Below, in pieces: positions 17,108 to 35,679 of a stretch of 64,000 nucleotides of DNA (positions are counted from its first letter, which is position 1; the number at the start of each line of letters is the position of its first letter). The DNA comes from an uncultured bacterium (lineage in GTDB: Bacteria; Bacillota_I; Bacilli_A; RFN20; CAG-826), in the NCBI GenBank assembly GCA_949300345.1, contig CASGDR010000001.1, positions 62,001-126,000 of the forward strand. The letters run 5' to 3'. The notes under the pieces are model-generated. The model saw nothing but the letters and a program-made list of their open reading frames with translations. It was not told the origin of the DNA and searched no databases. The translations under genes and the position numbers were made by a program.

Positions 17108-19828
17108 TTAGTTCTTCTTAAGCAGCAAGGCGGAGTAGGCCGGGATAAAGGTCGGGGTCGCTCCGTTATAGGAAGCCAGGGTGGTGTAGCCCTCAAAGCC
17201 GGCCCCGCAGTCGGTGGGACCGAGGTTAACGACGACCTGGAACTCTTCGTTGCCCATCTTCCTGACGAAGTTGACCATGTAGTCATAGGTCTGGTTATTG
17301 ACTTTCCAATCATAGGGAGTGAAGGCACCCCTGATAAGGGTCGGCTCGGTGGACTTATACTGGGCAAAGCCAGCCAGGGCGCTATAGTGGCTAGAAGCAT
17401 TCTCAGCCTGGGTTTCGGCCGGAGAGACCAAGCTTGAAGCGTTGATGTCATCAAGGGCCACGGATTCGGAAGAACCGGTGATATCAAAGGCCGGACGCTC
17501 GGAGCTATCCTCCCACTTCATGGGCTGGCGGTAATAGACGTCGGCATAGCTGGAAGTCGAGGTGATCCCGTTGGGGAAGTTCCCGGTCATGCCAAGCTCA
17601 TCGCCATAATAGATCCAGGTAAGGCCCGGAAGCATCAGCTGGGCGATCTGGACGCAGGTGGCGGCCTTGTTCAAGGTCTCATAGTTGGAGCTGGTGACCC
17701 TGCCCTGGGATGCGATGCCATCATCATTGAAGGAGGTGGCGGCCACCCTATTGATGGAGCGGGCGATGTCGTGGTTTGAGGTGAAGGTGCCGTTGATGGC
17801 GGTGTACTCCCCGGCCGTGCCATAGTCGATGGCGGAGCCGCCGCGGTACTGGTTATAGGTGTTCAGCACGCTGAAGAGGTTCCAATATCCGCTATAGGTG
17901 ATGGACTTGTCGCTACCGGCTAGGGCGCTATCCGAGGCGGCGGTATATTGCCCGCCGTTTTTGCCCTCGTTGGCCCCTAGGAAGCCATAGGCATTGCCCT
18001 GATAGGCCCCGGAGTTGCCTCCGTTTTGGGCCCTCGCGGCGATGGAGGTCAGATTGAAGTAGCTATAGAAGTCGAATAAGGAGTCAAAGCCTTCATAGAA
18101 GGGGGCGACATGGTAGGCATGCCCATCGAAGTTCTCGCCCACGATGAAGGCATTGGGGTAATCCTTCTTGAGGTCGGCATTGATGTCGCGCCAGAAGTGC
18201 AGGTTCTTGGTCAGGTCGCTGGAGTAATCCCCGGCCGCCGCTTCATCGACGATATAGGTGTCACTAGCCTCATAGGCGACTTCGTCGCGCATATAGATGT
18301 GCTTGACCGCGTCGATCCTGAAGCCGTCGACCCCGATTTCGCACCAGTTCTTGATGATGGACTTCACGGCCTCGCGGGTCCCGGTATAGGAGTAATTGAG
18401 CTCAGGCATCCCGGAGCCGAACTTGGCATAGTAGCTATAGACGTGGTCGCCATAGGGATACCAGCAGTTTTCCTGGGTGATATCGGTCCCGGTTTCGTGG
18501 TTGGCCCAGCGGTAATAGCCGCGCATGGTCTCATGCAGCTGGGCCGAATCGATGAACCACTTGTTCCCGGTAGAGGTGTGGTTGATGACAAGGTCCATGA
18601 TGACGGCGATGCCGCGCTTATGGCATTCGTCGAGCAGTTGCTTGTAATCGGCCGCCGCGGTCTTTGAGGTCACGCTGCCGCCGTTGGCCTTGGCCGCATC
18701 GGAGACGCTGGAGCCGTAGCGCGGATCCACGCTCAGGTAGTCGGTGATGTCATAGCCGTGGTAGGAATCCGAGGCTTGGATCGGAGTAAGCCAGAGGACA
18801 TTGACGTTGAGTCCTTCGATGTAGTCGAGTTTCTGATAGATGCCATAGATGTCGCCAAAGCCGTCGCCATCGGAGTCGCAGAAGGAAGACACCATGATTT
18901 GGTAGCCGACCCCGGCCCCGTTTTTGAGGACCCCATCGGAATTGCCCTTCAGGAATTCGGGGCTGGTAGCGGCTTTATCGGCCGTTATTGAGAAATCGAC
19001 GTCATTGTACTTCTCGTTGTTGTAGGTCTCGTTGGTCCCATCATCTTCCTCGAAGGGATCGACGATTTCCCCTAACGGGGTGGCCGAGGGGCTTTGGACC
19101 TGGTCCTGGACCACGAAGCAGTGATAGGAAGTGGTTCCGTCATCGTTTTCCAGGGCATAGTCGGCCACCGGGATCTTGAGGTCGCCCGAATCGTTGGTCC
19201 AGAAGCCCGAACCGGAAGTGCGGGTTTCGGATTTGACGATCTGCAGGCCCAGCCATTCGGTCTCCGGATTGGCGTGGTTTTCAGCAAAGGAGACGGTTTC
19301 CTCGCCCATGGTCTTGCTGGCAGTGTCCCAGCCGCCCTTGTAGTCGGTCTTATTAAGATCGACGGCGATATGGGCATAGCCGAAGCTATCGACGATGGCA
19401 TCCCCAGTAGCGCTTAGATAATCCGAAGAGGTGGTACGTCCGACCCAGTCAAACTTGACCCCCTGCCCGGCCTTTTCCTTATAGGGCCAGCACCAGACGT
19501 CCCATTCATTGTAGGAAGCCGGAGTCGTGTCATAGCGCAGGTAATGGTAATAGAAGTGGTCGCCCTCGGAGGTCGCGGCCAGATTATCCATATAGGCATC
19601 TATTTCCTCTTGGGTGTGTCCGTCGATGCTTCCGCTGGAAGAACTCGATGAGGAAGAACCCGAGGAGGAAGAGGAAGTTCCGGATGAAGACGAGGAAGTG
19701 CCGGATGAGGAAGTAGCCGATGTATCTCCCCCTCCCGAGGAGGAAGTCCCACCCCCGCCGCAGCCGGATAGGGCCAATAGGCATATGGCGCCTAGGACCA
19801 ATAGATGGGTTTTGCTTTTGCTTTCCAT
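17108..19828 (-). CDS. Lipoprotein alpha-amylase (GH13) with N-terminal starch-binding-like domain
   Basis: Extracellular, membrane-anchored starch hydrolase of 906 residues. Signal peptide with lipobox LSGC (Cys23), then a Gly/Ser/Thr-rich tether to about residue 66. Residues about 90-165 (FYYHYLRYD, EWDVWCWPY) resemble CBM41/PUD modules of pullulanases. The GH13 barrel runs from about 305: region I DLVINH, region II GFRIDAVKH with nucleophile Asp506, region III VGENFD with acid/base Glu565, region IV FTSNHD with Asp687. All catalytic residues are present. AAGGAG precedes the ATG. It lies downstream of the anchored starch-binding protein, separated by a weak hairpin, with no clear promoter of its own. 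Confidence 0.92.
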   Translation of the reverse strand: MESKSKTHLLVLGAICLLALSGCGGGGTSSSGGGDTSATSSSGTSSSSSGTSSSSSGSSSSSSSSGSIDGHTQEEIDAYMDNLAATSEGDHFYYHYLRYDTTPASYNEWDVWCWPYKEKAGQGVKFDWVGRTTSSDYLSATGDAIVDSFGYAHIAVDLNKTDYKGGWDTASKTMGEETVSFAENHANPETEWLGLQIVKSETRTSGSGFWTNDSGDLKIPVADYALENDDGTTSYHCFVVQDQVQSPSATPLGEIVDPFEEDDGTNETYNNEKYNDVDFSITADKAATSPEFLKGNSDGVLKNGAGVGYQIMVSSFCDSDGDGFGDIYGIYQKLDYIEGLNVNVLWLTPIQASDSYHGYDITDYLSVDPRYGSSVSDAAKANGGSVTSKTAAADYKQLLDECHKRGIAVIMDLVINHTSTGNKWFIDSAQLHETMRGYYRWANHETGTDITQENCWYPYGDHVYSYYAKFGSGMPELNYSYTGTREAVKSIIKNWCEIGVDGFRIDAVKHIYMRDEVAYEASDTYIVDEAAAGDYSSDLTKNLHFWRDINADLKKDYPNAFIVGENFDGHAYHVAPFYEGFDSLFDFYSYFNLTSIAARAQNGGNSGAYQGNAYGFLGANEGKNGGQYTAASDSALAGSDKSITYSGYWNLFSVLNTYNQYRGGSAIDYGTAGEYTAINGTFTSNHDIARSINRVAATSFNDDGIASQGRVTSSNYETLNKAATCVQIAQLMLPGLTWIYYGDELGMTGNFPNGITSTSSYADVYYRQPMKWEDSSERPAFDITGSSESVALDDINASSLVSPAETQAENASSHYSALAGFAQYKSTEPTLIRGAFTPYDWKVNNQTYDYMVNFVRKMGNEEFQVVVNLGPTDCGAGFEGYTTLASYNGATPTFIPAYSALLLKKN

Positions 19829-19897: not shown

Positions 19898-21178
19898 CTA
19901 GCTTCTAGCGCGGCGCTTGCGCCTAATGGCAAGGACGGAAATCCCACCTAGCAAGACCATGGAGGAGGTGATGGCTGCTCCAAAGAGATAAGGATTGGAG
20001 GCGATATCGAAGGTTGGGGCCGAAGGGCTGTTGCTGGATTGGTTGGCAATCATGCTCTGGATCTTGGTGTAGCAATCGACCCCGGCTTTGACCCTGCCGG
20101 ATTTATAATCGGGCATTATACCATCTTCTGATTCGGTCCATCCATAGTCATCGATGGAAGCGTCGCCATTTTTCAAAACGACTTTGCCCTCTTTTTCAAA
20201 CCAGGTGTTCCAAACCTGCTGGGCCGCTCCAAAGCCATTATCGGCATTGGTTTCGCAGGTGAAATAAGCACCAAGGATCAGCGGAGCCATCGTGGCGGTA
20301 TTGAAGTTGGCATTATCGTCCAGGATGCCTTTAGTCAAGAGATGATTTTGATGAGCAACAGAGTCATCTGATTCATAGAACAGATAAGCATTGTCTCCAC
20401 TTAAATAAGAGGTATTCTCCGTAGTGCTGATCGAAGTGTAATGATCGACTGCTCCGGTAGTGGCGTTATAGCACCTGAACTGAAATTCCTTGCCGATGGC
20501 AGAGGTCGGAACATCGAAGTAGACCAGATGATTGTTGTCCCCAGAGGTCGTATATTGGGCATAGCCAGTAGGAGCAATGGCCTCGTCTATGCCCTCCCCC
20601 CAATAATGGTAGGAGTGGACAAAACCATCCAAGCAATATTTAGAACGTTTCAGCCACACCCTATAAGTATCCGGGGTGAGAGAAGTAAGGTTGCGGTCCA
20701 CACCCCAATAGGAGAAGGACGTCGATCCATCAAGACCGCTTATCCCGACATACAGAGTTTGTTTGTTGTTGAACCGATGTTTAACGCTATCCGCGCTTAA
20801 GTTGCCAGTCTGATCTTTTCCGTTGTTGACGATAAAGTGTGCCATGTTGCTAGGCATCTCCTCGACCGTAATCTTATAGACATCGTTGTCAAGCGAGTAC
20901 ACCTCGCAGGGTGTTCCAGGCCATCCTACTTCATATTTTCCGTCAGCATCCCAACAATAGAAATACAACTTTTTTTTTCCAGTATCTAGGTTCGCTACAG
21001 CTAGGTCAGCTACATTGCTTCCGAATCTAATGTCGAAGGTATAGGTTCCATCGCTATTGATGGCGGCATCGGCTTGCTTGACACCGGAATTGTCCACATA
21101 GATCTGAGAGGCCACTCCAACCCCCACTGCGGTGGCGCACAGGAAGGCTGCTGATATGAGTATGGATGAGATTCTCAT
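19898..21178 (-). CDS. Secreted, C-terminally anchored protein with CBM26-like starch-binding module
   Basis: 426 residues with an N-terminal signal peptide (hydrophobic to about residue 23, no lipobox Cys at the right place) and a C-terminal membrane segment (about 397-418) followed by RRKRRARS, so it should be fixed in the membrane facing out. Residues about 68-127 (LYFYCWD, GWPGTPC, VYKITVEE, FIVNNGKDQTGNLS) follow the CBM25/26 pattern with aromatic platforms. Residues 165-265 look like a second, diverged beta-sandwich. No catalytic motif. The gene is visibly more AT-rich than its neighbours. Likely a starch-binding surface protein working with the adjacent amylases; specificity is inferred. 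Confidence 0.65.
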   Translation of the reverse strand: MRISSILISAAFLCATAVGVGVASQIYVDNSGVKQADAAINSDGTYTFDIRFGSNVADLAVANLDTGKKKLYFYCWDADGKYEVGWPGTPCEVYSLDNDVYKITVEEMPSNMAHFIVNNGKDQTGNLSADSVKHRFNNKQTLYVGISGLDGSTSFSYWGVDRNLTSLTPDTYRVWLKRSKYCLDGFVHSYHYWGEGIDEAIAPTGYAQYTTSGDNNHLVYFDVPTSAIGKEFQFRCYNATTGAVDHYTSISTTENTSYLSGDNAYLFYESDDSVAHQNHLLTKGILDDNANFNTATMAPLILGAYFTCETNADNGFGAAQQVWNTWFEKEGKVVLKNGDASIDDYGWTESEDGIMPDYKSGRVKAGVDCYTKIQSMIANQSSNSPSAPTFDIASNPYLFGAAITSSMVLLGGISVLAIRRKRRARS

Positions 21179-21456: not shown

Positions 21457-24400
21457 CTAGGCCTTCTGAAGGACCAAGAGCTCGTATTGGGCTACGCCCA
21501 TGGTGTTGTCTGAGACGGTGAAAGTGGTTCCCGCCGTATGGTCAAAGGAGGAAGAATAGACGACCTTATAGGTGTCATTTCCGCAGGGTAGGTCGCTATA
21601 CTGGTTGCTAGAGCGCCCCCCTAGCATCACATAGTAGTTCTCCGACACATTGAGGTTTATGGCGATGGCCGTCTTGTCCAAGGTCCCGGCCGCGGTGGCC
21701 GCATTCCAGGCATCCGCACTTGTCAGTTCGCCCCAGAGGGTAGCATCCACATAGTATTCGTCCCCCATGGTAAGGCCCAAGACCCCGGCTTCGAGCAATT
21801 CGTTGCGCAGGCGGATGGACTCGATGGTGGTGCTATACTCCTCATAGTATTTGGCCTTGCGGTCCCATTTGAAGGAGTTGCACTCGTCCCCATAGGTATA
21901 GGAGTTGCGGACCATGATGTTGCCATCGCCCATGACGAATCCGTCGATGGCCTGGGTCGATGTAGCCTCGACTATGCAGAGGTCATAGAAGGGATCCTCG
22001 GGGGTGAGGTACTTCTGGCGGAAGAATTCGTCCCCGCCGTTGAGGAAGGCCATGCCCTGGGACATCATCATCGAAGCGTTCAAAGCCATGGTGGCCTTGA
22101 TGGCCTCTTCCCTGTCCTGGATGCTGACTCCGGAGGCGGTTCCGTCCCCGAAGCAGAAGTTCATCTGGTCATAGAGGGTGTAATTGTCATGGCAGGCCAC
22201 ATAGTTCAGGGTCTGGATGGGGTTGCTGCCCCCGCGGGAGTTGGTCCCGATGAACTGCAGGGCCGCCTCATTGACCGTCGAATACTGGATGTGCTCCTCC
22301 CCTTGGCTCATGAAGCCATAGGCCGGGAGGTTACTCTCCCACTGGGTTTCGCCCTTGAGTCCGTCGCGGCCTCCGCCGTTGAAGCAGCCGACGGAGCCTT
22401 TGCCTTGGTCATATAGTTCTTTATAGACGTTTTGCTGGTTGGCTTCTAGATAACCTTCGGTAAGCCCGGAGCCGGAATAGCCGGTCCAGCCCTCGCCATA
22501 GACCACGATCTGGGGATCGATGTCATGTAGGGCATCCTTGACCGCCCTCATGGTGATGGTGTCATGGCAGCCCATGAGGTCGAAGCGGAAGCCCTTGATC
22601 CCATAGGTAGAAGCCCAGAAGGAGACGGAATCGACGATGAATTTCCTCACGAAGGGGCGCTCGGAAGCGGTGACGTTGCCGGTGCCGGAGCCATCGTGGT
22701 AATTCCCGTTGGCGTCCTTCCTCATGAAGTAATCGGGAACGATCTTGTTGTAGGAGAAGTTGGTGACCGAGGAGACATGGTTATAGACCACGTCCATGAT
22801 GATCCTGATCCCCTCTTCGGCGAAGGCCTGCACCAAGCCCATGTATTCATTGATGCGGACCTCGGGCTCCCAGGGATCGGAAGAGTAGGCCCCTTCCACC
22901 ACATTGTAGTTCTGGGGGTTATAGCCCCAGTTGTAGCTGGGCCAGGCCGTGACGTTACCCTCCTCGTCAGTGGTAAACCTCTCGTCGTTATCCTGGTCGA
23001 AGACCGGCAATAGCTGCACGGCATTGACCCCGGTTTCCACGATGTGGTCGAAGCCGGTCTTGACGGTGATGGTCTCGCCCGACTCGGTGGTCCCGGTATA
23101 GGTCGTGCCTTTTTCATGGAAGGCCTTGAAGGTACCGGGGATCTCCTTGCCGTTCCAGGTATCGTCCATGGTCAAATCGCGGATATGGGCTTCATAGACG
23201 CTAAGCTCATTGGGGGTATCGATCCCATAGGTGGTCTCAAGCCCCTGTATGGCCGCATCAAAGCCCTCGGGTTTTAAAGCATTGAAGTCCTCATCGGTGA
23301 TGCGGTAGGCCCTGATGCCGTTGATGGAAGCGGCCTTGGCGTAGGGGTCGATGGCCTCGTTGGTGCCCGAGGCATTGGTAACCGAGAAGGTGTAGTACTC
23401 GTGGATGATCTCATCAAGGGGGACGCTATAGGTCCACACCCCCTTCTCCCCGCGGGTCATTTCCATGGTGCGGTGGTTGGAAAGGGTGGGGTCGATATGC
23501 CCGGTGAGGTTGATCTCCGGGGTCCTTCCGGTCAGATATAGGAAGAGCTGGACCCGGCTGGCGGTCGGGGCCCAGAGCTTGAAGACGGCATTACCATCCA
23601 CCTCGCTATAGCCGAGGTCATCCCCTTCATAGACCAGTTCCTCTTGGAACTTTTCGGTATCGTAAAGTCCGGAGAAGGAGACCGATTTGCTACGCGTCTT
23701 ATCGGGATTCTGGGCAAAGGTGGCCTCGATCACGTAGTTGAGGCTAGGATCGGCATCTTCGTCCAAAGAGATGGTGAATTCCTTGCTATCCGGAATCCCC
23801 TCCTTGATGAGGTACTCGGACATATCGGGGGTTTTGTTGTCATCAAGGGCCTGATAGTACTCGCTACCATAGGCATAGAGGCTATAGTGGCTGACCTTGC
23901 CGACGTCTTCCTCTTCGCGCTCGCCCTTTGTACCGGTTCCGATAGCCACGATGCTATTCCAGGAAGATAGATAGGCGAATTCCAGCCTATCGCCCATGGC
24001 ATCCTCCTTGGAGACATAGGTTTCCACTTCCTGCCCATTGCCCTGTACGGCATAGCAGGTGATCATCTCCTGACCCGACTCGGTCGTGGTCTTGTTGGAA
24101 ATGAAATCGCCGAAATTAAGCAGGATGTCCTTGCTTTGGCCCGCCCAGGTCCCGGCATCCTTGACGATGAAGGAGATGGAACTGTATTCGGTCCCCGCGA
24201 AGGGCTCGGCGGACATGTCGATGTCCTTATAGACCCCATAATCATCGGGGCTATCTTGGTTATCGAAGCGGGTTTCGCCCAAAATATTGCCGTCCACGTC
24301 GGTGGCCCAGATCCACAGGCGCTTGTTGATGTAGTCGTTGGCGTCGTTATGGTAATAGATCCTGACGATGCCTCCGAACGCGACGATTTCCCCGCTGGGA

Positions 24401-24570
24401 TCTTCCCCGGAGGAAGTCGTAGAGCTGCCCGAAGAGGGCGTGGTGCTCGAGGATGAAGAGGAAGCTCCGCTACTGGAAGAGCCAGAAGAGCTGGAAGAGC
24501 TCATTTCGCTAGGCCCGCAGGAAACAAGCATCAACCCCAAAAGCAATAAACTAAGTCCGCGCAATTTCAT
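21457..24570 (-). CDS. pulA: Lipoprotein pullulanase, type I
   Basis: Debranching enzyme cleaving alpha-1,6 bonds in pullulan and starch, 1037 residues. Lipobox LVSC (Cys18), Ser/Thr/Gly linker to about 60, CBM41-like module at about 66-155 (IVRIYYHND, RLWIWATD), a CBM48-type region at about 325-425, and a GH13_14 barrel with the type I signature YNWGYNP (546-552). Catalytic residues: Asp664 in GFRFDLMG, Glu693 in VYGEGW, Asp795 in ACHD. Twelve bases separate it from the upstream amylase stop and AAAGGAG precedes its ATG, so it is the last gene of the maltodextrin operon. Confidence 0.94.
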   Translation of the reverse strand: MKLRGLSLLLLGLMLVSCGPSEMSSSSSSGSSSSGASSSSSSTTPSSGSSTTSSGEDPSGEIVAFGGIVRIYYHNDANDYINKRLWIWATDVDGNILGETRFDNQDSPDDYGVYKDIDMSAEPFAGTEYSSISFIVKDAGTWAGQSKDILLNFGDFISNKTTTESGQEMITCYAVQGNGQEVETYVSKEDAMGDRLEFAYLSSWNSIVAIGTGTKGEREEEDVGKVSHYSLYAYGSEYYQALDDNKTPDMSEYLIKEGIPDSKEFTISLDEDADPSLNYVIEATFAQNPDKTRSKSVSFSGLYDTEKFQEELVYEGDDLGYSEVDGNAVFKLWAPTASRVQLFLYLTGRTPEINLTGHIDPTLSNHRTMEMTRGEKGVWTYSVPLDEIIHEYYTFSVTNASGTNEAIDPYAKAASINGIRAYRITDEDFNALKPEGFDAAIQGLETTYGIDTPNELSVYEAHIRDLTMDDTWNGKEIPGTFKAFHEKGTTYTGTTESGETITVKTGFDHIVETGVNAVQLLPVFDQDNDERFTTDEEGNVTAWPSYNWGYNPQNYNVVEGAYSSDPWEPEVRINEYMGLVQAFAEEGIRIIMDVVYNHVSSVTNFSYNKIVPDYFMRKDANGNYHDGSGTGNVTASERPFVRKFIVDSVSFWASTYGIKGFRFDLMGCHDTITMRAVKDALHDIDPQIVVYGEGWTGYSGSGLTEGYLEANQQNVYKELYDQGKGSVGCFNGGGRDGLKGETQWESNLPAYGFMSQGEEHIQYSTVNEAALQFIGTNSRGGSNPIQTLNYVACHDNYTLYDQMNFCFGDGTASGVSIQDREEAIKATMALNASMMMSQGMAFLNGGDEFFRQKYLTPEDPFYDLCIVEATSTQAIDGFVMGDGNIMVRNSYTYGDECNSFKWDRKAKYYEEYSTTIESIRLRNELLEAGVLGLTMGDEYYVDATLWGELTSADAWNAATAAGTLDKTAIAINLNVSENYYVMLGGRSSNQYSDLPCGNDTYKVVYSSSFDHTAGTTFTVSDNTMGVAQYELLVLQKA

Positions 24571-24582
24571 ATTGTCTCCTTT

Positions 24583-26235
24583 CTACTCCTTGAGGAGGAT
24601 GGAATTGAAGGAAGGTAAGATCAGATGGTCCCCTTCCTTCTTGGCCTTGTAGGTCGAGGTATAGATTTCCTCAACTACATCCATCGAGGCGGGAAGGTCG
24701 GCTTCCCGGGCTTCTTCGGCCACATTGTGGTATAGGTAATAGACATTGCCTTCGGCATCGCTGATCTTGAAGCCGGCGATGCCACTGGTGAGGTCTGCCC
24801 CTTCCCAGGTGCTATCCATATCGAAGAGATTGGGATACTTGTTCCTGAGGTTGATGACCTTCTTGTAATGGTTGGTAAGCGAGAAGGCTTCCTCTAGCAA
24901 TACATTGGCCCCGGGGCTGGTCTGCTTGGAAGAATCGTCATAGTGTTCCAAATTGTCGGCCCTAGGATCCCCGTTGCCCCAGATCATCGATAGCCTTCTG
25001 GCAATATCGCTATTCTCGCTGCCTCTGGTCCCCCAGAGGTCGATTTCCTCGCCATAGTAGACCCAGGGCGTGCCCGGGGTGAGCAGATACAAGGAAGCGA
25101 GAGCCTTCTTGTAATCCTCCTCGCGATCCCCCTTGACCAGGAAGTAGTTGTAGGGACGGTCGAGGTCATGGTTGCTGACCATGTTGCTGAAATAGGATTC
25201 CGGGGCGTTGCGCTTGAACTTGGTGAGGATTTCCGCGGTAGTCTTGCCGTATCTTGAGGCATTGGTCTCGTTTTGCAACATCATCCCCGGAGAGCTTGAG
25301 TTCTTCTGGCTGGTCGGAAAGTTGAAATAGCTTAGCCCCGTGCTTCTAGCATATTCATAGATGAAGGTCTGCGAATTGTCCATGGCCTCCCCGATGATGT
25401 AGGCATCTTCCTTGATGGCTAGGCAGGTATCCTTGAACCAGCGCAGGAATTCCTTGTTGGAAGAGGCGTTGCCCACATAGTACCAAATGACGGCGTCAAG
25501 CCTAAAGCCATCGATATCGTGGTCGTTTAGCCAAAAGGAAACGATGTTTTCGATTTCCGAGCGGACTTCTTCGTTATCGAGGTCGAATTCGGGCATCCCC
25601 GAATCGAAGTTGCATTCATAGTAGGCCTCGGCCGTGGAATTGTAGGCATAGCCGCCGGCGCTATGTTCGCTCCAGACATACCAGTCCTTCTTGGAATTTG
25701 TGCCGCTATAATCGTTGCGGTAATCCTGGGCGGACTGGATGAACCATGGGTTCTGGCTCGAGGAGTGGTTGAGCACCAGATCGATGATGACCTCTAGGCC
25801 CAGTTCATGGGCGCTCTTTACCAAGGAATCGAAGTCGTCCAAGGTGCCGAAATCCGATCTCACGTCATAGTAATCGATCACGTCATAGCCGTGGTAGCTA
25901 GGCGAAGGGTGGATCGGGGTAAGCCAGATCCTTTCAAAGCCGAGTTCCTTGATATAAGGCAATTTCTGCTCGATGCCCTTGAAGTCGCCTTTACCGTCGC
26001 CACTACCGTCATAGTAGGCCCCGGTGAAGATTTCATAGCCGACCCCTTGGTAGGGAGCCTCGGTTTCTTCTATCTCATAGGAAGCGGCTTTTTCAAAGCC
26101 ATAGTCGATGCTAGTTGAGCTAGTTGAGCTATCGGAAGCGCTAGTGCTGCTTCCTCCATTTCCAGCACAGGAGACAAGGGGGAGCAACAACAAGGAAAGG
26201 GCCAGATAAAGGCCCTTCCTACTAGTCGAATTCAT
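24583..26235 (-). CDS. Lipoprotein alpha-amylase/neopullulanase-type GH13 enzyme
   Basis: 550-residue outer-face enzyme. Signal peptide with lipobox LVSC (Cys23) and short Ser/Thr linker to about 45, then a compact GH13 domain: GYEIFTGAYYDGSGDGKGD near 66, region I IDLVLNH near 151, region II GFRLDAV (Asp247), region III IIGEAM (Glu283), region IV SNHD (Asp357). No extra binding module, so probably an oligosaccharide-cutting amylase. ATG 26235 is four bases past the malG stop, choosing this start over the longer frame that shadows malG. Cotranscribed with the transporter. Confidence 0.93.
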   Translation of the reverse strand: MNSTSRKGLYLALSLLLLPLVSCAGNGGSSTSASDSSTSSTSIDYGFEKAASYEIEETEAPYQGVGYEIFTGAYYDGSGDGKGDFKGIEQKLPYIKELGFERIWLTPIHPSPSYHGYDVIDYYDVRSDFGTLDDFDSLVKSAHELGLEVIIDLVLNHSSSQNPWFIQSAQDYRNDYSGTNSKKDWYVWSEHSAGGYAYNSTAEAYYECNFDSGMPEFDLDNEEVRSEIENIVSFWLNDHDIDGFRLDAVIWYYVGNASSNKEFLRWFKDTCLAIKEDAYIIGEAMDNSQTFIYEYARSTGLSYFNFPTSQKNSSSPGMMLQNETNASRYGKTTAEILTKFKRNAPESYFSNMVSNHDLDRPYNYFLVKGDREEDYKKALASLYLLTPGTPWVYYGEEIDLWGTRGSENSDIARRLSMIWGNGDPRADNLEHYDDSSKQTSPGANVLLEEAFSLTNHYKKVINLRNKYPNLFDMDSTWEGADLTSGIAGFKISDAEGNVYYLYHNVAEEAREADLPASMDVVEEIYTSTYKAKKEGDHLILPSFNSILLKE

Positions 26236-26239
26236 GGGC

Positions 26240-27187
26240 TTAGCCCTTGACGGCGCCCCCGGTAACGCCGGAGATATAGTACTTCTGCATGCACAGGAAG
26301 ACGATGACGACCGGAATCGAGACGATGACCGCGCCGGCACAGAACTGGCCCCAGTAGGAATTCTTGTTCTTGCCGTCGTCGCCGCCGTAGATGAAGTTGC
26401 GGAGTAATAGGGCCACCGTCCAGTTGTCCTTTTGGGTGGAGTAGCCGCCCAGCATGTAGCTCGAGGTGATGTATTCGCCCCAGGGCGCCATGAAGGCGGT
26501 AAGGGCGGTGTAGACCACGATGGGCTTGGATAGCGGCAGGATAATCTTATAGAAGATCTGGAAGCGGGTCGCCCCGTCGACCATGGCCGCTTCGTCGATC
26601 TGCTTGGAGATGGTATCGAAGAAGCCCTTGGAGATGTAGTAGCCCATGCCGGCCCCGGCGCAGTAGATGACGGCCAGGATCCAGATGTTGCCGGTGAGGT
26701 TAACGGCTTTGAGCAGCCAATACATGATGATGAGGGAGAGGAAGCCCGGGAACATGCCCATGACCAAATTGATGCGCATCATGGCACCCCTGCTCTTGAA
26801 GCGGAGGCGGGAGAGGCCATAGGCGCTCATCAGGGTAAGCAGGGTCGAGAAGACCATGCAGATGAGGGCCAATAGCAAGGTGGCCGGGAAGGCCCCGAGG
26901 GTCGGGGTAAGGCCGCCACTATCGTTTGCAACATTCATGAAGAAGAAGTTGTAGTTGGAATCGATCAGGGCCCCCGAGGTGTCATACACCTTGTTGGTGA
27001 AGAGGTTGACATATTGCTCGAAGCTCCAGACCTCGGGCCAGAAATCAGCCTGGGAGGCGATGGTCGGGGTCCTGGTCCCGGTGAAGGACTGCAGAATCAG
27101 CCAGAGGATCGGGGAAATCCAGATCAGTGAGAGGATCGTCAATATGATGTAGACGATGACGTCGAGGGTAATTCTTCTTGCTTTCAT
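26240..27187 (-). CDS. Carbohydrate ABC transporter permease, MalG type
   Basis: 315-residue permease with six predicted membrane segments and the EAA loop EAAMVDGATRFQIFYKIILPL near residues 198-218, which docks the ATPase. It pairs with the MalF-like protein just upstream, whose stop overlaps this start (TAATG). Given the neighbouring amylases and pullulanase, the cargo is most likely maltodextrins. No ATPase gene is in the locus. Confidence 0.93.
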   Translation of the reverse strand: MKARRITLDVIVYIILTILSLIWISPILWLILQSFTGTRTPTIASQADFWPEVWSFEQYVNLFTNKVYDTSGALIDSNYNFFFMNVANDSGGLTPTLGAFPATLLLALICMVFSTLLTLMSAYGLSRLRFKSRGAMMRINLVMGMFPGFLSLIIMYWLLKAVNLTGNIWILAVIYCAGAGMGYYISKGFFDTISKQIDEAAMVDGATRFQIFYKIILPLSKPIVVYTALTAFMAPWGEYITSSYMLGGYSTQKDNWTVALLLRNFIYGGDDGKNKNSYWGQFCAGAVIVSIPVVIVFLCMQKYYISGVTGGAVKG

Positions 27188-30096
27188 TATTGGAAGGCCT
27201 CCTCGTTCTTGACGCTGCCAAGGCGGTTATAGACCACCATGGAGATGATGCCGCACACCGCGAAGATCATCATGCCGATGATCGACGCCATGTTGTATTC
27301 CTTTTGGTTGCCGGTGACCATGCGGTAGAGCCAGGTGATCAATAGGTCGGTCCTGGAGGCGGAAGCTACCAAGCCCCCCTGCCCGGCCCCGAGGCCTTCG
27401 GCTCCGATAAGGAAGTAGATGACGTTGAAGTTGTTGATGTTGCCCACGAAGGTGGTAAGCAAGCTGGGTCCGGTGACGAAGAGGATGTAAGGCATAGTGA
27501 TGGAAATCAGTTGCCTGAAGGGTCCGGCCCCGTCGATCCTCGAGGATTCATAGAGGTCTTCGGGGATGTTCATCAAGATGCCTGATACCGAGAGAATGGT
27601 ATAGGGCACGCCGACCCATATGTTGATGATGATGACCATCACCTTGGGCAACAGCGCGTCATTGGCTGTATCGGAGAGGAATTTGATGGGATTGTCGACC
27701 CCGGTTACCGAATAGATGAAGGAGTTGATGGGGCCTGACAGGGAGAGGAGCTGGTTGACTGCGAGTAGTGAGATGAACTGCGGGACGGCGATGGCCAAGA
27801 CGAACATGGTCCTAAACACCGTCTTGCCCTTGATGGACTTGCGGTTGATGACCAGGGCCAAGATGATGCCGATGATATAGTTGGTGAAGGTGGCAAACAC
27901 GGCCCAGATGAGCGTCCAGCCCAATAGATAGACGAAGGTGTAGCTATAGGACTGGGAACCGGAACTGGAGAAGGTACCGAAGAGGTTGGCAAAGCCATCG
28001 ATCGACCAGGTGAAGTAGCCGTCCTGGTTGTGGCGGTCCCAGTTGGTGAACCCGGCCGCGATGGAGATGATAAGCGGCAGGATGCAGACCAGCACGGCAC
28101 CGGCCACGGGCAGGAACATGACCGAGAAGGCGAACTTCTCGTCGGCGAACTGCTTGACCCGTTTGCCGGCCATGACGACCTTGCCATGGAAAGGCGATTT
28201 GGCTTCCGTGACGCTGGATTCGTAGCGCTCGGCCTTCTTTTCAAGAAGGGCAATGGTCTTGGCCTCGTCGTCTTCGGTCTGCTTGATGGCGTCCTTGAAG
28301 TCCCTATAGACCCCTTTGGCGTCATGCTTGGTAAGCCCGATGGAAGTGGTCAGATGCCCGATGAAGGCATCCTTGCCGGTATCATAGACCAAGCGTAGCT
28401 TACGGTAGTTGCGGTAGCATTCCTGGCGGGTTAGCGCCTCATCGAGGGCGTCATGCTTGTAGAGGGTTTCGTATTCGGCGGCCGCCCTTTCGTAATCGAC
28501 CGAGAAATCGGCAACTTCGGCCAGGAAGCGGTTCTTGACCGAAGCCCCCTCTTCCCCGTCCTTGTTCAGACGCCTGAGCAGGCCCAGCGACTTGCTGGCC
28601 ACCTTCTTGGCGGCTTCAAGGGGCACTTCGAAGGCCCCGACGATGGACATGACGGCCTCCTTGACCTTGATGGCATCCCCTTCATTATGGGGTTCAAGGC
28701 CGTTTCTTTGGGAAACCGGATCCCTTTGGTAGATGGCATCATAGAGCAATTGCCCCTTGCCATAGACCCCCGCGAGGATCCTCATGTCGCGGATATAGCT
28801 TTGGTAATCGTTGTATTTGTCGAAGGTGTGGCGGAAGGAAATCGACTGCAAGGAGTAGCCCTTCTTCACATATTCGAGACCCCTCTTGGGTTCATGGTCG
28901 GGCTTTTTGGGCTCGAGATAGCGCTCAAAAGGAGTCGACCAGGTCTTCGAACGGAGCCAGCGGGCAAAGCCCATGTATTTTTCATATAAGTTGTCCTGGA
29001 AGACATGGAAGCTGATGGCAAAGCCCGAACTCTTGTAGGTCCCGTCTTCGAGGGCCTTAGCGCAGGCCTCTTTGAAGGCGACACCTTCCTTTTGGGAAAG
29101 CCGGTATAGCCCGATCGAATCCTTGGCCAAGGACCTAGCGGTCTTCCATCCCACATGGAATTCGGCCTGGATCCTCAGGGCGGCTTCCTCCTTGGCAATC
29201 GGATTCCCCGCCGTAGCGATGCAGGCAACTAGCCTATCGGAGTCCCTATAGGCTCTAGCGGTAACCGAGGGGTCGCGGGCGACCTTCTTGAAATCCAGAT
29301 AGCTTATGTAGCGGGCCGACATCGGGGTATAACCCATCTGGGTCCGCATCAGCTTGTTGACCTTATGCCGGCTTAGGTCTTCGAGGTAGAGGGTCTTTCC
29401 GTCCTTGCCTTCGAAGGTGAATTCGTCATAGTGGTCCAAAACATAGGCGGCATCGCTTCTAGCGGCCCTGAAATCGGGCAGATGGACGATGCGGTAGCAG
29501 TCATACATGCCCCGGATGGACATGAAGTAGATGATGATCCAGCCGATGACCACGAAGATGGAGAAGAAGCCATAGATGAGGACCGAGGGGTTCTCGCCTT
29601 GGCCGATGTCCCATTCACCGAGTACGGGGTTCCAGACATAGATGGGGTCGGTGGAAAGGACGATGACCTTTCCGATATAGGTGACCCCGACCGTCACGGT
29701 GAATACCAATAGCGCCACGTTGGCGATCAGATAGACGAAGCCGTCGAGGTATTGCTTGCGGCGGATGTTTTCGAATCCGGGGATGAGGAAGCTGAGGCGT
29801 CCGCCCCAGTCCACGTCCCTGAACACGCGGCAGACCCATCTCAGACCCTTGTAGATGCCATAGATGACACCGGGGATGAGAAGGACTATGACCTTGAGGA
29901 TCTTGAATAGAGTCAATACGACGTCGATCACTACCCCAAGGACGAACAAAACGATTTTTAGGAAACCGTCTTTGAGGGAACGGCCCGTGGAAATGTACCA
30001 GGCTTCCTTCTGGTTGTCCCCTTCCGCCATCGAAGCGAGGGCGGAATAGTCGGAAGAACCAGTTTCCGAAATGCCGTTATATTCCTTTTCTTCCAT
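27187..30096 (-). CDS. MalF-type ABC permease with 650-residue N-terminal extension
   Basis: 969 residues, about three times a normal permease of this class. Residues about 665-969 are a standard MalF-like domain with six membrane segments and the EAA loop (LYESSRIDGAGPFRQLISITMP, near 848-869). The first 650 residues are extra: hydrophobic segments at about 45-85, 118-146 and 172-195, then a charged, mostly helical soluble region of about 450 residues containing three related helical units (about 309-345, 485-522, 581-615). I recognise no domain in the extension. GGAGG precedes the ATG. The gene has continuous codon structure, so it is a true fusion and not a misread frame. Confidence 0.88.
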   Translation of the reverse strand: MEEKEYNGISETGSSDYSALASMAEGDNQKEAWYISTGRSLKDGFLKIVLFVLGVVIDVVLTLFKILKVIVLLIPGVIYGIYKGLRWVCRVFRDVDWGGRLSFLIPGFENIRRKQYLDGFVYLIANVALLVFTVTVGVTYIGKVIVLSTDPIYVWNPVLGEWDIGQGENPSVLIYGFFSIFVVIGWIIIYFMSIRGMYDCYRIVHLPDFRAARSDAAYVLDHYDEFTFEGKDGKTLYLEDLSRHKVNKLMRTQMGYTPMSARYISYLDFKKVARDPSVTARAYRDSDRLVACIATAGNPIAKEEAALRIQAEFHVGWKTARSLAKDSIGLYRLSQKEGVAFKEACAKALEDGTYKSSGFAISFHVFQDNLYEKYMGFARWLRSKTWSTPFERYLEPKKPDHEPKRGLEYVKKGYSLQSISFRHTFDKYNDYQSYIRDMRILAGVYGKGQLLYDAIYQRDPVSQRNGLEPHNEGDAIKVKEAVMSIVGAFEVPLEAAKKVASKSLGLLRRLNKDGEEGASVKNRFLAEVADFSVDYERAAAEYETLYKHDALDEALTRQECYRNYRKLRLVYDTGKDAFIGHLTTSIGLTKHDAKGVYRDFKDAIKQTEDDEAKTIALLEKKAERYESSVTEAKSPFHGKVVMAGKRVKQFADEKFAFSVMFLPVAGAVLVCILPLIISIAAGFTNWDRHNQDGYFTWSIDGFANLFGTFSSSGSQSYSYTFVYLLGWTLIWAVFATFTNYIIGIILALVINRKSIKGKTVFRTMFVLAIAVPQFISLLAVNQLLSLSGPINSFIYSVTGVDNPIKFLSDTANDALLPKVMVIIINIWVGVPYTILSVSGILMNIPEDLYESSRIDGAGPFRQLISITMPYILFVTGPSLLTTFVGNINNFNVIYFLIGAEGLGAGQGGLVASASRTDLLITWLYRMVTGNQKEYNMASIIGMMIFAVCGIISMVVYNRLGSVKNEEAFQ

Positions 30097-30167: not shown

Positions 30168-31496
30168 TTAATCGTGGATGCTCCAGCCTTTGGAATCGCC
30201 GAGGATGCCAGTGACGGCTTCTTTGACGCTGGCATAGTCACCCCACTGGCTGGCAGTCTTGGCGTTGTTGACGATGCAGTCGCCGAAGTTGGTCATCGGG
30301 GTCCAGAAGTCATCGGTGACGGAGACGCCCTGTCCAACGGTGCGGCCGGCCGCAACCATTCCGCCGAGAGCGACGTTGAACTTGTTGGAGCTGTAAGCGG
30401 GGTCTTCCACGACGGTGAGGTTGGTGACGCCATACTTGGTGGCATCGAAGAAGACCTTGGCGCCTTCATCGGAGACGAAGTAGCGGGCCAGAGCATAGGC
30501 GGCGCGGGCCTTGGCGGTATCGCTTCCGGTGGCAGTGGTGTTGTTGATGCACATACCCTTGAAGCCGTTGAAGGCCTTGAACTCATAAGAGGTCCCGTTG
30601 ACTTCCATGCTCGGGAGGGAGGTGGCAACGATCCTGTCGGGGTCATTGACCTGGGCTTCATAGGTGGCGATGTTGTTCCACTGGATGACAGCGGCAGTCT
30701 GATCGTTGAAGTTGATGTTGGCATTATCCAAGGAGGCAACCAAGCCGCCGGTGGTATTGATGGTGGCACCATACTCCTTGTAGAGATCGGAGATGTGCTG
30801 CAGGCCGGCTAGGACGGTCGGGTTGAGGAAGTTGGCATCGATTTCGGTGCCGTCGGCATTCGGGGTGAATTCGCCTCCGGTAGCCCAGAAGTAGGCGGGA
30901 CTATACCAGGCGTCGCTGATGTCGAAGCAGAAATCCCATCCGTTGGTAGCGCACTTTTGGATGATGGTTTCAAGGCTGAGGACATCGGTGGCACTCAGCT
31001 TCTGGTTGTCATAGATGAGGACATAGGAGTTGTCGGCACGGTGCGGGAAGGCATAGGTATTGCCGTTGATGGAAACGGCATCAAGAACGCCTTCGCCGCA
31101 GTGTTCGACCACGTATTCGGTGTAGGTAGTGCCAAGGCGGGCCAAGGCGTTGGCGTTGACGGCCTTGCGGATGTTGTCGTCGGCGATGGCCATGACGTCG
31201 GCGCAAGCGGAAGCGTCGGAAACAAGCCTGTCACCAACGGCGTTTTCAGCGACGTTTTCGGTGATTTCGACGGTGACGCCGGGGTTGGCCTTTTCGAAGG
31301 CATCGATGACGGCCTGATAGGCGGCGTTGTCACCTTCGGGGCACCAAAGGGAGAGAGAGGCAGGATCAAGGGGCGCTTCGCTGCTGGCTGTGCTGCCGCC
31401 GCCCGGGCCTGTGCTGCCGCCCGTGGGGCCGCAGCCGACTAACGCAAGGAGTCCGGCAGTTGCTAGTACGGCCAATCCATACTTTTTGTTGATCAT
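30168..31496 (-). CDS. Carbohydrate-binding lipoprotein of ABC transporter, MalE type
   Basis: Extracellular solute-binding protein, family 1, 442 residues. Lipobox LVGC near residue 22, Gly/Ser-rich tether, then the first lobe with SLWCPEGDNAAYQAVIDAFEK and NPGVTVEI, and typical family 1 segments (GKTYAFP-like NGNTYAFP, GMCINN, GWSIHD end). It is the first gene of the maltodextrin operon and feeds the two permeases downstream. ATG 31496 was chosen over the longer frame because it starts the signal peptide and has AAAGGAG at the right distance. Confidence 0.92.
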   Translation of the reverse strand: MINKKYGLAVLATAGLLALVGCGPTGGSTGPGGGSTASSEAPLDPASLSLWCPEGDNAAYQAVIDAFEKANPGVTVEITENVAENAVGDRLVSDASACADVMAIADDNIRKAVNANALARLGTTYTEYVVEHCGEGVLDAVSINGNTYAFPHRADNSYVLIYDNQKLSATDVLSLETIIQKCATNGWDFCFDISDAWYSPAYFWATGGEFTPNADGTEIDANFLNPTVLAGLQHISDLYKEYGATINTTGGLVASLDNANINFNDQTAAVIQWNNIATYEAQVNDPDRIVATSLPSMEVNGTSYEFKAFNGFKGMCINNTTATGSDTAKARAAYALARYFVSDEGAKVFFDATKYGVTNLTVVEDPAYSSNKFNVALGGMVAAGRTVGQGVSVTDDFWTPMTNFGDCIVNNAKTASQWGDYASVKEAVTGILGDSKGWSIHD

Positions 31497-31589
31497 TAAA
31501 TTTGCTCCTTTCCAATTGTCTGGGGATCGCATGCCCTAGCGAAACAAGGACATGGCTTTCCCGCTGCAATTTAATCTCAACATGACCAT

Positions 31590-32405: not shown

Positions 32406-33047
32406 ATGGAAAACCTAGCCAAATACATCGACCACACCCTTCTTAAGGCCACGGCCAAGAAGGAGGACATCAAAAAGCTCTGCCTAGAGGCCAAGGAGTA
32501 TCATTTCGCCTCCGTATGCGTCAATCCCTGCTACGTGGGTTATTGCCACGCTTTGCTCAAGAATAGCGATGTCAAGGTCTGCACCGTGATCGGCTTCCCC
32601 CTAGGGGCCAATACCCCCACCACCAAGTGCCAGGAAGCCCAGGAGGCTGTCCGCCTTGGAGCCCAGGAAGTCGATATGGTCATCAATATCGCAGATGCCA
32701 AGGACGGGAACTTCAAGGCCATCGAGGAGGAAATCGCCCTAGTCAAGAAGGCCTCCTACCCCGCCTTATTGAAAGTGATTCTGGAGACCTGCTACCTAAG
32801 CGACGAGGAAATTGTGCAAGCCTGCAAGGCCGCAAAAGCGGCCAAGGCCGACTTCGTGAAGACCTCCACCGGCTTTGGGACCGGGGGTGCCACTACCCAC
32901 CACGTCGAACTGATGAGAAAGACCGTGGGACCGGATATGGGCGTCAAGGCCTCAGGCGGGGTAAGAAGCAAGGAAGATGCCCTGGATATGATCAAGGCCG
33001 GGGCCACTAGGATCGGGACCAGCAATGGCCTAGCCATCGTCGAATAA
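32406..33047 (+). CDS. deoC: Deoxyribose-phosphate aldolase
   Basis: Cleaves 2-deoxyribose 5-phosphate to acetaldehyde and glyceraldehyde 3-phosphate in deoxynucleoside catabolism. Class I aldolase with its catalytic set intact: DHTLLK near 9-14, Asp90 in EVDMVIN, Schiff-base Lys152 in FVKTSTGFG and Lys181 in VKASGGVR. Length 213 is normal. Followed nine bases later by a glycosyltransferase gene on the same strand. No other deo gene is in the window. Confidence 0.97.
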
Positions 33048-35033: not shown

Positions 35034-35672
35034 CTAAAGCAGCTTCAGCGGATCGCTGGTCCCAATTAAGGAAGCCCCGCATTTCAGAAGCAGTTTGGCC
35101 TGGCGCTGGCTAAGGACGGCCCCGGTGGCCTTGACGATGGCGTTTTCGCCCATGGCATTGCGGATGATCTTGATATGGTCGGATTTGACCCCGGTATAGC
35201 CAAAGGGAGTGCCGCTTACGACGGCTTTGCCCCCGGCATTGCGGACGCTGGCGGCGGTTTGGTAGAGTTCCTTGGCGCTAAGCAATGAGCTCTCGATGAC
35301 ATAACGCGCGGTAGCCTTGCCGAGAATGACTTTTTCCACCTCGCTTACCTCGCGCATGATATAGCGCCAGTCGTGGGCCTTGATCATCGAGTGGTTGAGC
35401 ACCACTTCGACGACTTGGGCTCCCCTTTCAGCGGCATCCTTGGCAATCATGGCCTTCATGGCGGTCGAGTCTTGCCCCAAAGGATAGCTCACCGCGGCCA
35501 CGGCCTTGGTGTAAGAACCCCTGAGCAGCAAGGCGGCCGTCTTCACGTAGAAAGGAGAAACGACGACCCCGTATAGGCCGAGTTCCTTGGCCTCGATGCA
35601 AAGGGATTTGATTTCGTTGACGTTGGCATCGGCATATAGGTAGGCCGATTCGATTCTATACTTGAGCTCCAT
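35034..35672 (-). CDS. DeoC-fold paralogue lacking the Schiff-base lysine
   Basis: 212 residues alignable with deoC at 32406. The acid-base Asp of the VDMVIN motif is Glu89 (VVEVVLNH), the Schiff-base Lys of VKTSTGFG is Ser153 (AVVSGTPFG), while the second lysine is kept (Lys181 in IVKATGAV). The N-terminal DHTLLK motif is also lost. By the known mechanism it cannot act as an aldolase through Lys; role unknown. ATG 35672 is preferred because TAAAAT lies exactly seven bases upstream and no ribosome binding site exists; a second ATG at 35678 is possible. Confidence 0.8.
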   Translation of the reverse strand: MELKYRIESAYLYADANVNEIKSLCIEAKELGLYGVVVSPFYVKTAALLLRGSYTKAVAAVSYPLGQDSTAMKAMIAKDAAERGAQVVEVVLNHSMIKAHDWRYIMREVSEVEKVILGKATARYVIESSLLSAKELYQTAASVRNAGGKAVVSGTPFGYTGVKSDHIKIIRNAMGENAIVKATGAVLSQRQAKLLLKCGASLIGTSDPLKLL

Positions 35673-35679
35673 TGGCATA

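Follow-up and report, generated by a model that had tools for sequence, protein, structure and literature searches.

The MalF-type permease of a starch cluster in an uncultured bacterium is an ordinary CUT1 permease that carries an undescribed domain, predicted to be cytoplasmic. The window, i.e. the whole stretch of 64,000 nucleotides that was analysed (contig CASGDR010000001.1, positions 62,001 to 126,000), belongs to a 1.05-Mb assembly of 10 contigs that is 93% complete and is labelled G000 here. The domain is inserted at a site where related permeases have a short linker. It is under purifying selection, and searches of Pfam, NCBIfam, and the PDB gave no match for it; a new fold is not claimed.

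The permease and its insertion

The cluster lies on the minus strand in the order sugar-binding protein (SBP), MalF, MalG, GH13 lipoprotein, pullulanase-like lipoprotein, CBM26 protein, and a further GH13 protein (Table 1). A MalG partner and a sugar-binding protein adjoin the window MalF, as in CUT1 importers. The initial annotation had recognised a MalF-like permease at 28132-30096. The assignment is borne out by the BPD_transp_1 match, the adjacent MalG and sugar-binding protein genes, and the EAA loop. These coordinates cover the first 655 codons only; the gene is a single 969-codon open frame that encodes the permease together with its insertion and occupies 27187-30096 of the minus strand. 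BPD_transp_1 was the sole Pfam family on the protein (aa 741-959, 52.5 bits versus a cut-off of 26.4), and no Pfam or NCBIfam family exceeded its cut-off in aa 1-655. Among the NCBIfam models, MalF (NF008232) ranked best for the window protein, at 158.3 bits, and did not reach its cut-off of 392. A few kilobases upstream of the cluster lie two DeoC-like (deoxyribose-phosphate aldolase) genes, at 32406-33047 (+) and 35034-35678 (-). The latter is strongly diverged, and a comparable diverged gene was found near locus L028.

Table 1. Genes of the starch cluster and parts of the MalF-type permease, in window positions
Feature	Position	Strand	Basis
Third GH13 protein of the cluster	17108..19828	-	Pfam; conserved beside other insert-bearing loci
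Protein with CBM26 starch-binding module	19898..21178	-	Pfam
Pullulanase-like GH13 lipoprotein (PUD, CBM48)	21457..24570	-	Frame list, Pfam
GH13 lipoprotein, lipobox LVSC; true start probably ATG at about 26232	24583..26340	-	Frame list, Pfam
MalG permease	26240..27187	-	Pfam, NCBIfam
MalF-type permease with insertion, whole gene, 969 aa	27187..30096	-	Frame; phmmer to E. coli MalF
Sugar-binding lipoprotein (SBP_bac_8)	30168..31532	-	Frame list, Pfam
N-terminal long hydrophobic/amphipathic helix, aa 39-90	29827..29982	-	Hydropathy; AlphaFold2 helix 33-94, low to moderate confidence
Two-helix membrane unit with outside hairpin, aa 92-200, common to short MalF/MdxF-type permeases	29497..29823	-	Alignment, profile
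All-helical insertion domain, predicted cytoplasmic, aa 201-635	28192..29496	-	Alignment with short forms, AlphaFold2, dN/dS
Sub-insertion, aa 280-360	29017..29259	-	Alignment; low pLDDT
Motif HTFDKYNDY, aa 423-431, conserved [FY]x[KRS][FY]Nx[FY]	28804..28830	-	Alignment, pattern scans
Ancestral linker (FHGK...DEKF) into the permease core, aa 636-655, also in short forms	28132..28191	-	Alignment
Permease core (BPD_transp_1), aa 656-969	27190..28131	-	Pfam, NCBIfam, phmmer, Foldseek
EAA loop (DLYESSRIDGAGPFRQLISITMP), aa 847-869	27490..27558	-	Sequence; invariant alignment columns

Three hydrophobic stretches (aa 39-89, 115-150, and 169-201 by hydropathy) precede about 450 charged, mostly helical residues, as the initial annotation had described. 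It had assigned all of this to a 650-residue block in front of the permease. An unusual stretch does precede the core, but aa 92-200 are ordinary. Homologues from congeners were aligned with shorter relatives of 453-521 residues. The short homologues align with aa 92-200 and 656-969 of the window protein, with a linker of about 30 residues between the two. Since aa 92-200 correspond to the membrane pair of short permeases, the alignment leaves aa 201 to about 635 as the extra part, an insertion of about 435 residues within the protein; an N-terminal block was ruled out. A profile of the two-helix unit indicated that the ordinary form consists of membrane unit plus core, mostly in frames of 440-570 residues; it had matches in 45 of 195 genomes and 33 of 85 genera in a sample across the phylum. 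Inserts at the linker site measured 211-508 residues in the first set of long forms and 992 residues in locus L209. About 50-70 residues of the sub-insertion were present in the window protein only. Four helical look-alikes (239-275, 297-335, 474-512, and 571-607) were considered as internal repeats and rejected, as HMMs of the units gave no off-site match above shuffled sequences.

The core is homologous to that of E. coli MalF (NF008232; PDB 2r6g_F and 4jbw), with a phmmer match over window aa 685-954 (E 1e-38, approximately 30% identity), and the conserved EAA loop, MalG pairing, and sugar-binding protein are common to both. E. coli MalF aligns with the window protein from its residue 245 onward only. 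Its P2 domain is periplasmic, whereas the equivalent loop of the window MalF (684-722) has about 40 residues and no P2. The window insertion is an unrelated helical domain in the preceding, cytoplasmic loop; P2 and the insertion are predicted to lie on different membrane faces. By segment order, we take this loop to correspond to the TM2-TM3 loop of E. coli MalF. Gram-positive MdxF/MalC-type permeases consist of a two-helix unit and a core, as do the 440-570 aa homologues across the class, and MdxF itself presumably has the two-helix N-terminal membrane unit. In place of the roughly 30-residue linker of MdxF/MalC-type proteins, the window MalF has a domain of 435 residues.

Fold, membrane side, and selection

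AlphaFold2 prediction of the insertion alone (20 rows) gave a mean pLDDT of 81 and a pTM of 0.69. The model is nearly all helix, including one helix of about 45 residues; pLDDT is 86-97 in its core, and confidence is lower in the sub-insertion around 280-360. The full-length model likewise had the core of the insertion among its best-predicted parts. Invariant residues of the insertion include H423, D426, K427, Y428, N429, R436, and G487.

The remark in the initial annotation that the extra part resembles nothing nameable agrees with the searches of families, sequences, and PDB structures. Pfam gave nothing above cut-off on 20 homologous inserts. Foldseek of the insertion model against the PDB gave no match (best E 0.64), and the best VIA-align score, Z 6.7 to gyrase A, was within the background for helical models. 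A sequence profile of the insertion searched against PDB sequences returned apolipoprotein A-I and other helical noise at E >= 0.16. Foldseek with the full-length model returned permease matches alone, and the insertion was therefore also modelled by itself. The family and fold searches contained no pointer to an enzyme-binding or ligand-binding domain, and nothing relevant on a cytoplasmic MalF domain turned up in the literature search. The two parts were not found as separate known genes, an outcome that the initial annotation had considered; all profile matches lay inside long MalF-type frames.

The insertion is flanked by basic residues (RGMYDCYR and KRVKQF), and four membrane segments are predicted between the insertion and the EAA loop. 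In this superfamily, the EAA loop, whose motif is defined in PMC5730181, is cytoplasmic and contacts the ATPase. Because the flanks are basic and the number of segments up to the cytoplasmic EAA loop is even, the sequence strongly argues that the insertion lies in the cytoplasm, near the ATPase subunits and the point where the sugar leaves the transporter.

The insertion is under purifying selection. Nei-Gojobori dN/dS was 0.08-0.29 in the insertion versus 0.02-0.15 in the permease core for the pairs where it was computable, the values for L029/L030 and L056/L028 being rough since synonymous distances were above 1.4. Between L056 and L028, 376 residues of the insertion could be aligned without a single gap. 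The evolutionary rate of the insertion is roughly double that of the core, and its length varies almost fivefold.

Distribution and two types of insertion

The initial annotation had proposed a profile search for the architecture. Of the 279 genomes of the order, 46 had an insert at this site, and GH13 or pullulanase genes lay next to it wherever the flanking sequence sufficed. Recurrence in many independent genomes shows that the architecture is not an artefact. A scan of the whole collection with the single window protein gave no matches. An alignment-based scan found 20 public loci carrying an insertion of the window's type (type 1). Their labels are Bacilli, Erysipelotrichaceae, Mollicutes, or Firmicutes, and every one comes from an uncultured or metagenome assembly. 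The type-1 insertion profile matched 23 of the 279 genomes. A single family accounts for all of them, with 14 genomes from the window's genus, 8 from a second genus, and one partial match in a third. No match outside that family was found among 392 genomes sampled over the phylum. In locus L072 (144-2581), the long MalF of RUG14760 is broken into two frames inside the insertion, by an assembly error or as a pseudogene.

A profile of diverged inserts (type 2) matched a further 23 genomes of the order, which belong to three families; two of these matches, in G090 (which holds the giant MalF of L209) and G030 (which holds L038), are weak or partial. Zero genomes had both types. Type-2 inserts look coiled-coil-like and are widely variable in length, with 421-557 residues in the members measured. 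The longest MalF, at L209:5075-9619 (-) of G090:C2, has 1514 residues with an insertion of 992 residues at the same site, in a cluster that contains MalQ, GH13, pullulanase, and ATPase genes.

Type-2 permeases (e.g. L208, L207, and L209) share with the window protein the insertion site, a starch cluster, and the motif [FY]x[KRS][FY]Nx[FY], and differ in the rest of the insert sequence. The motif, a pattern widened after both types had been viewed, occurs in exactly one copy in each long form scanned (FDKYNDY in the window) and is absent from 8 of 8 short forms; its chance in shuffled inserts was 0.001-0.014 per insert. Five of the 20 rows scanned were from previously seen genomes, so that the clean out-of-sample set is the 15 others, which are mutually related. 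When the type-1 profile was compared with one built from five type-2 rows, the ancestral 22-column linker aligned and nothing else. With 20 rows, the whole length aligned with the motif in register, at E 9e-4 and a probability of 23%, which is only suggestive of common descent of the two types. A tree of the permease core needs one change between long and short forms, with weak support (63/26) and with the short row L045 on a long branch. A single origin of the insertion would be compatible with this tree, and is not proven by it.

Genomic context and possible roles

GH13 and/or pullulanase genes adjoin the SBP-MalF-MalG genes at all insert-bearing loci with enough flank. Three starch-type loci (L040, L041, and L045) have no insertion; hence, starch import does not depend on it. 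The galactan importer of the window's genome (L232) has a MalF of 589 aa with a short linker and no ATPase gene in its cluster; its neighbours are GH53-like endo-galactanases, a name that comes from sequence resemblance and not from a family search. Because an importer without an operonic ATPase gene has a short linker, the insertion goes with starch and not with an ATPase encoded elsewhere. The galactan-type MalF (L232:7763-9532 (-), G000:C8) apparently has the N-terminal membrane unit twice (FLPGVGTAIMGAYEKG and FFVMGVPQMFYQQFIKG).

We read the insertion, with a probability of roughly 40%, as a putative domain for docking or regulation that is particular to the starch importer; the initial annotation, too, had suggested a regulator, which it may be. 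The Phe/Tyr-rich DKYNxY region would bind a partner from cytosolic alpha-glucan metabolism, such as an alpha-glucosidase or a 4-alpha-glucanotransferase; alternatively, it would bind a protein or metabolite signal of sugar status. Such binding would link the uptake of long malto-oligosaccharides with their consumption. HPr was not found in the 93% complete assembly of the window's genome, while the control genomes were positive, and is likely absent. Classical PTS control of a maltose importer is probably unavailable, since HPr was not found. More tentatively, the insertions may form an undescribed family of cytoplasmic domains inside MalF that senses or docks intracellular alpha-glucan metabolism and couples starch import to use in bacteria without the PTS; at one site, this family would have grown from about 200 residues to about 1000.

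A different role, which we consider doubtful, would be that of the transporter's own arm, gripping or gating an MsmX-like ATPase dimer that is encoded elsewhere, and so tuning coupling or selecting the ATPase. The insertion loop is on the ATPase side of the membrane, and the window cluster and most type-1 clusters have no ATPase gene. B. subtilis MsmX is encoded apart from its importer (PMC5730181), and the window's genome likewise has an ATPase elsewhere. This stand-alone MalK-type ATPase with OB_MalK (G000:C9:6269-7630) is apart from permease genes and adjoins a GH13 alpha-glucosidase-like gene and a PucR-type regulator; orthologues occur in other long-form genomes, G018 giving a weaker partial match only. 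However, the rule that the insertion accompanies the lack of an operonic ATPase, which holds for the window and most type-1 clusters, is refuted by the many type-2 loci that have the insertion and an ATPase gene (L037, L207, L208, L209, L233-L237, L239, L241, L242, L244, and L245), and the galactan importer of the window's genome has neither. In addition, identity across genomes is mostly 71-87% for the best-matching ATPase orthologues, versus 24-40% for the insertion. Short maltodextrin-type loci, as well as L040, L041, and L045, have a MalK-type ATPase gene adjoining MalG or immediately upstream. The orthologue of the stand-alone ATPase type in G052, an otherwise complete genome in one contig, is in two frames of 282 and 203 (G052:C1:795376-796673), through a frameshift or a real break.

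It is unlikely that the insertion is a structural scaffold, whose helical rods oligomerise or space importers into clustered starch uptake sites. The nearly all-helical model with its long helix and the coiled-coil-like type-2 inserts of widely varying length, up to 992 residues, agree with such a scaffold. The type-1 core, however, is predicted to be compact with invariant residues, and not a simple coiled coil. The fast evolution and variable length of the insertion fit a scaffold as well as a specific receptor, and were counted against the docking or regulatory reading.

That the insertion is functionless, tolerated bloat in a lineage whose transporter genes tend to gain insertions is very improbable. 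The length range of 211-992 residues, the sub-insertion seen only in the window protein, and an insertion of about 130 residues in an ATPase of the same genome speak for it; it is disfavoured by the dN/dS values and the retention of the motif across long forms, together with the gap-free alignment of a diverged pair and the high-confidence predicted fold. In the ATPase concerned, a MalK-type protein (L115:8901-10382 (-), G000:C8), the insertion is inside the ABC_tran domain, where the Pfam match spans 28-292 for a model of 137 positions; other MalK-type frames in the genus have 570-630 aa.

An extracellular docking platform for GH13 lipoproteins, in line with the initial suggestion of a platform for the adjoining starch enzymes and with the co-occurrence of the insert and GH13/pullulanase genes, is hardly tenable, because the lipoboxes (LVSC) of the GH13 neighbours place these enzymes outside the cell, where they cannot directly touch an insertion that the basic flanks and the parity with the EAA loop put inside.

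Known type I importers have their extra domains either in the periplasm, as P2 of MalF, or attached to the ATPase, as the MalK regulatory domain. If the permease itself has a large conserved domain in the cytoplasm, ABC importers could be regulated or organised at a third location. The insertion occurs in Bacilli of gut and rumen that have small genomes and conspicuous gene clusters for starch degradation. It offers a concrete handle on the control of glycan uptake in such bacteria, here apparently without HPr, with the natural short forms and the galactan importer of the same genome as ready controls.
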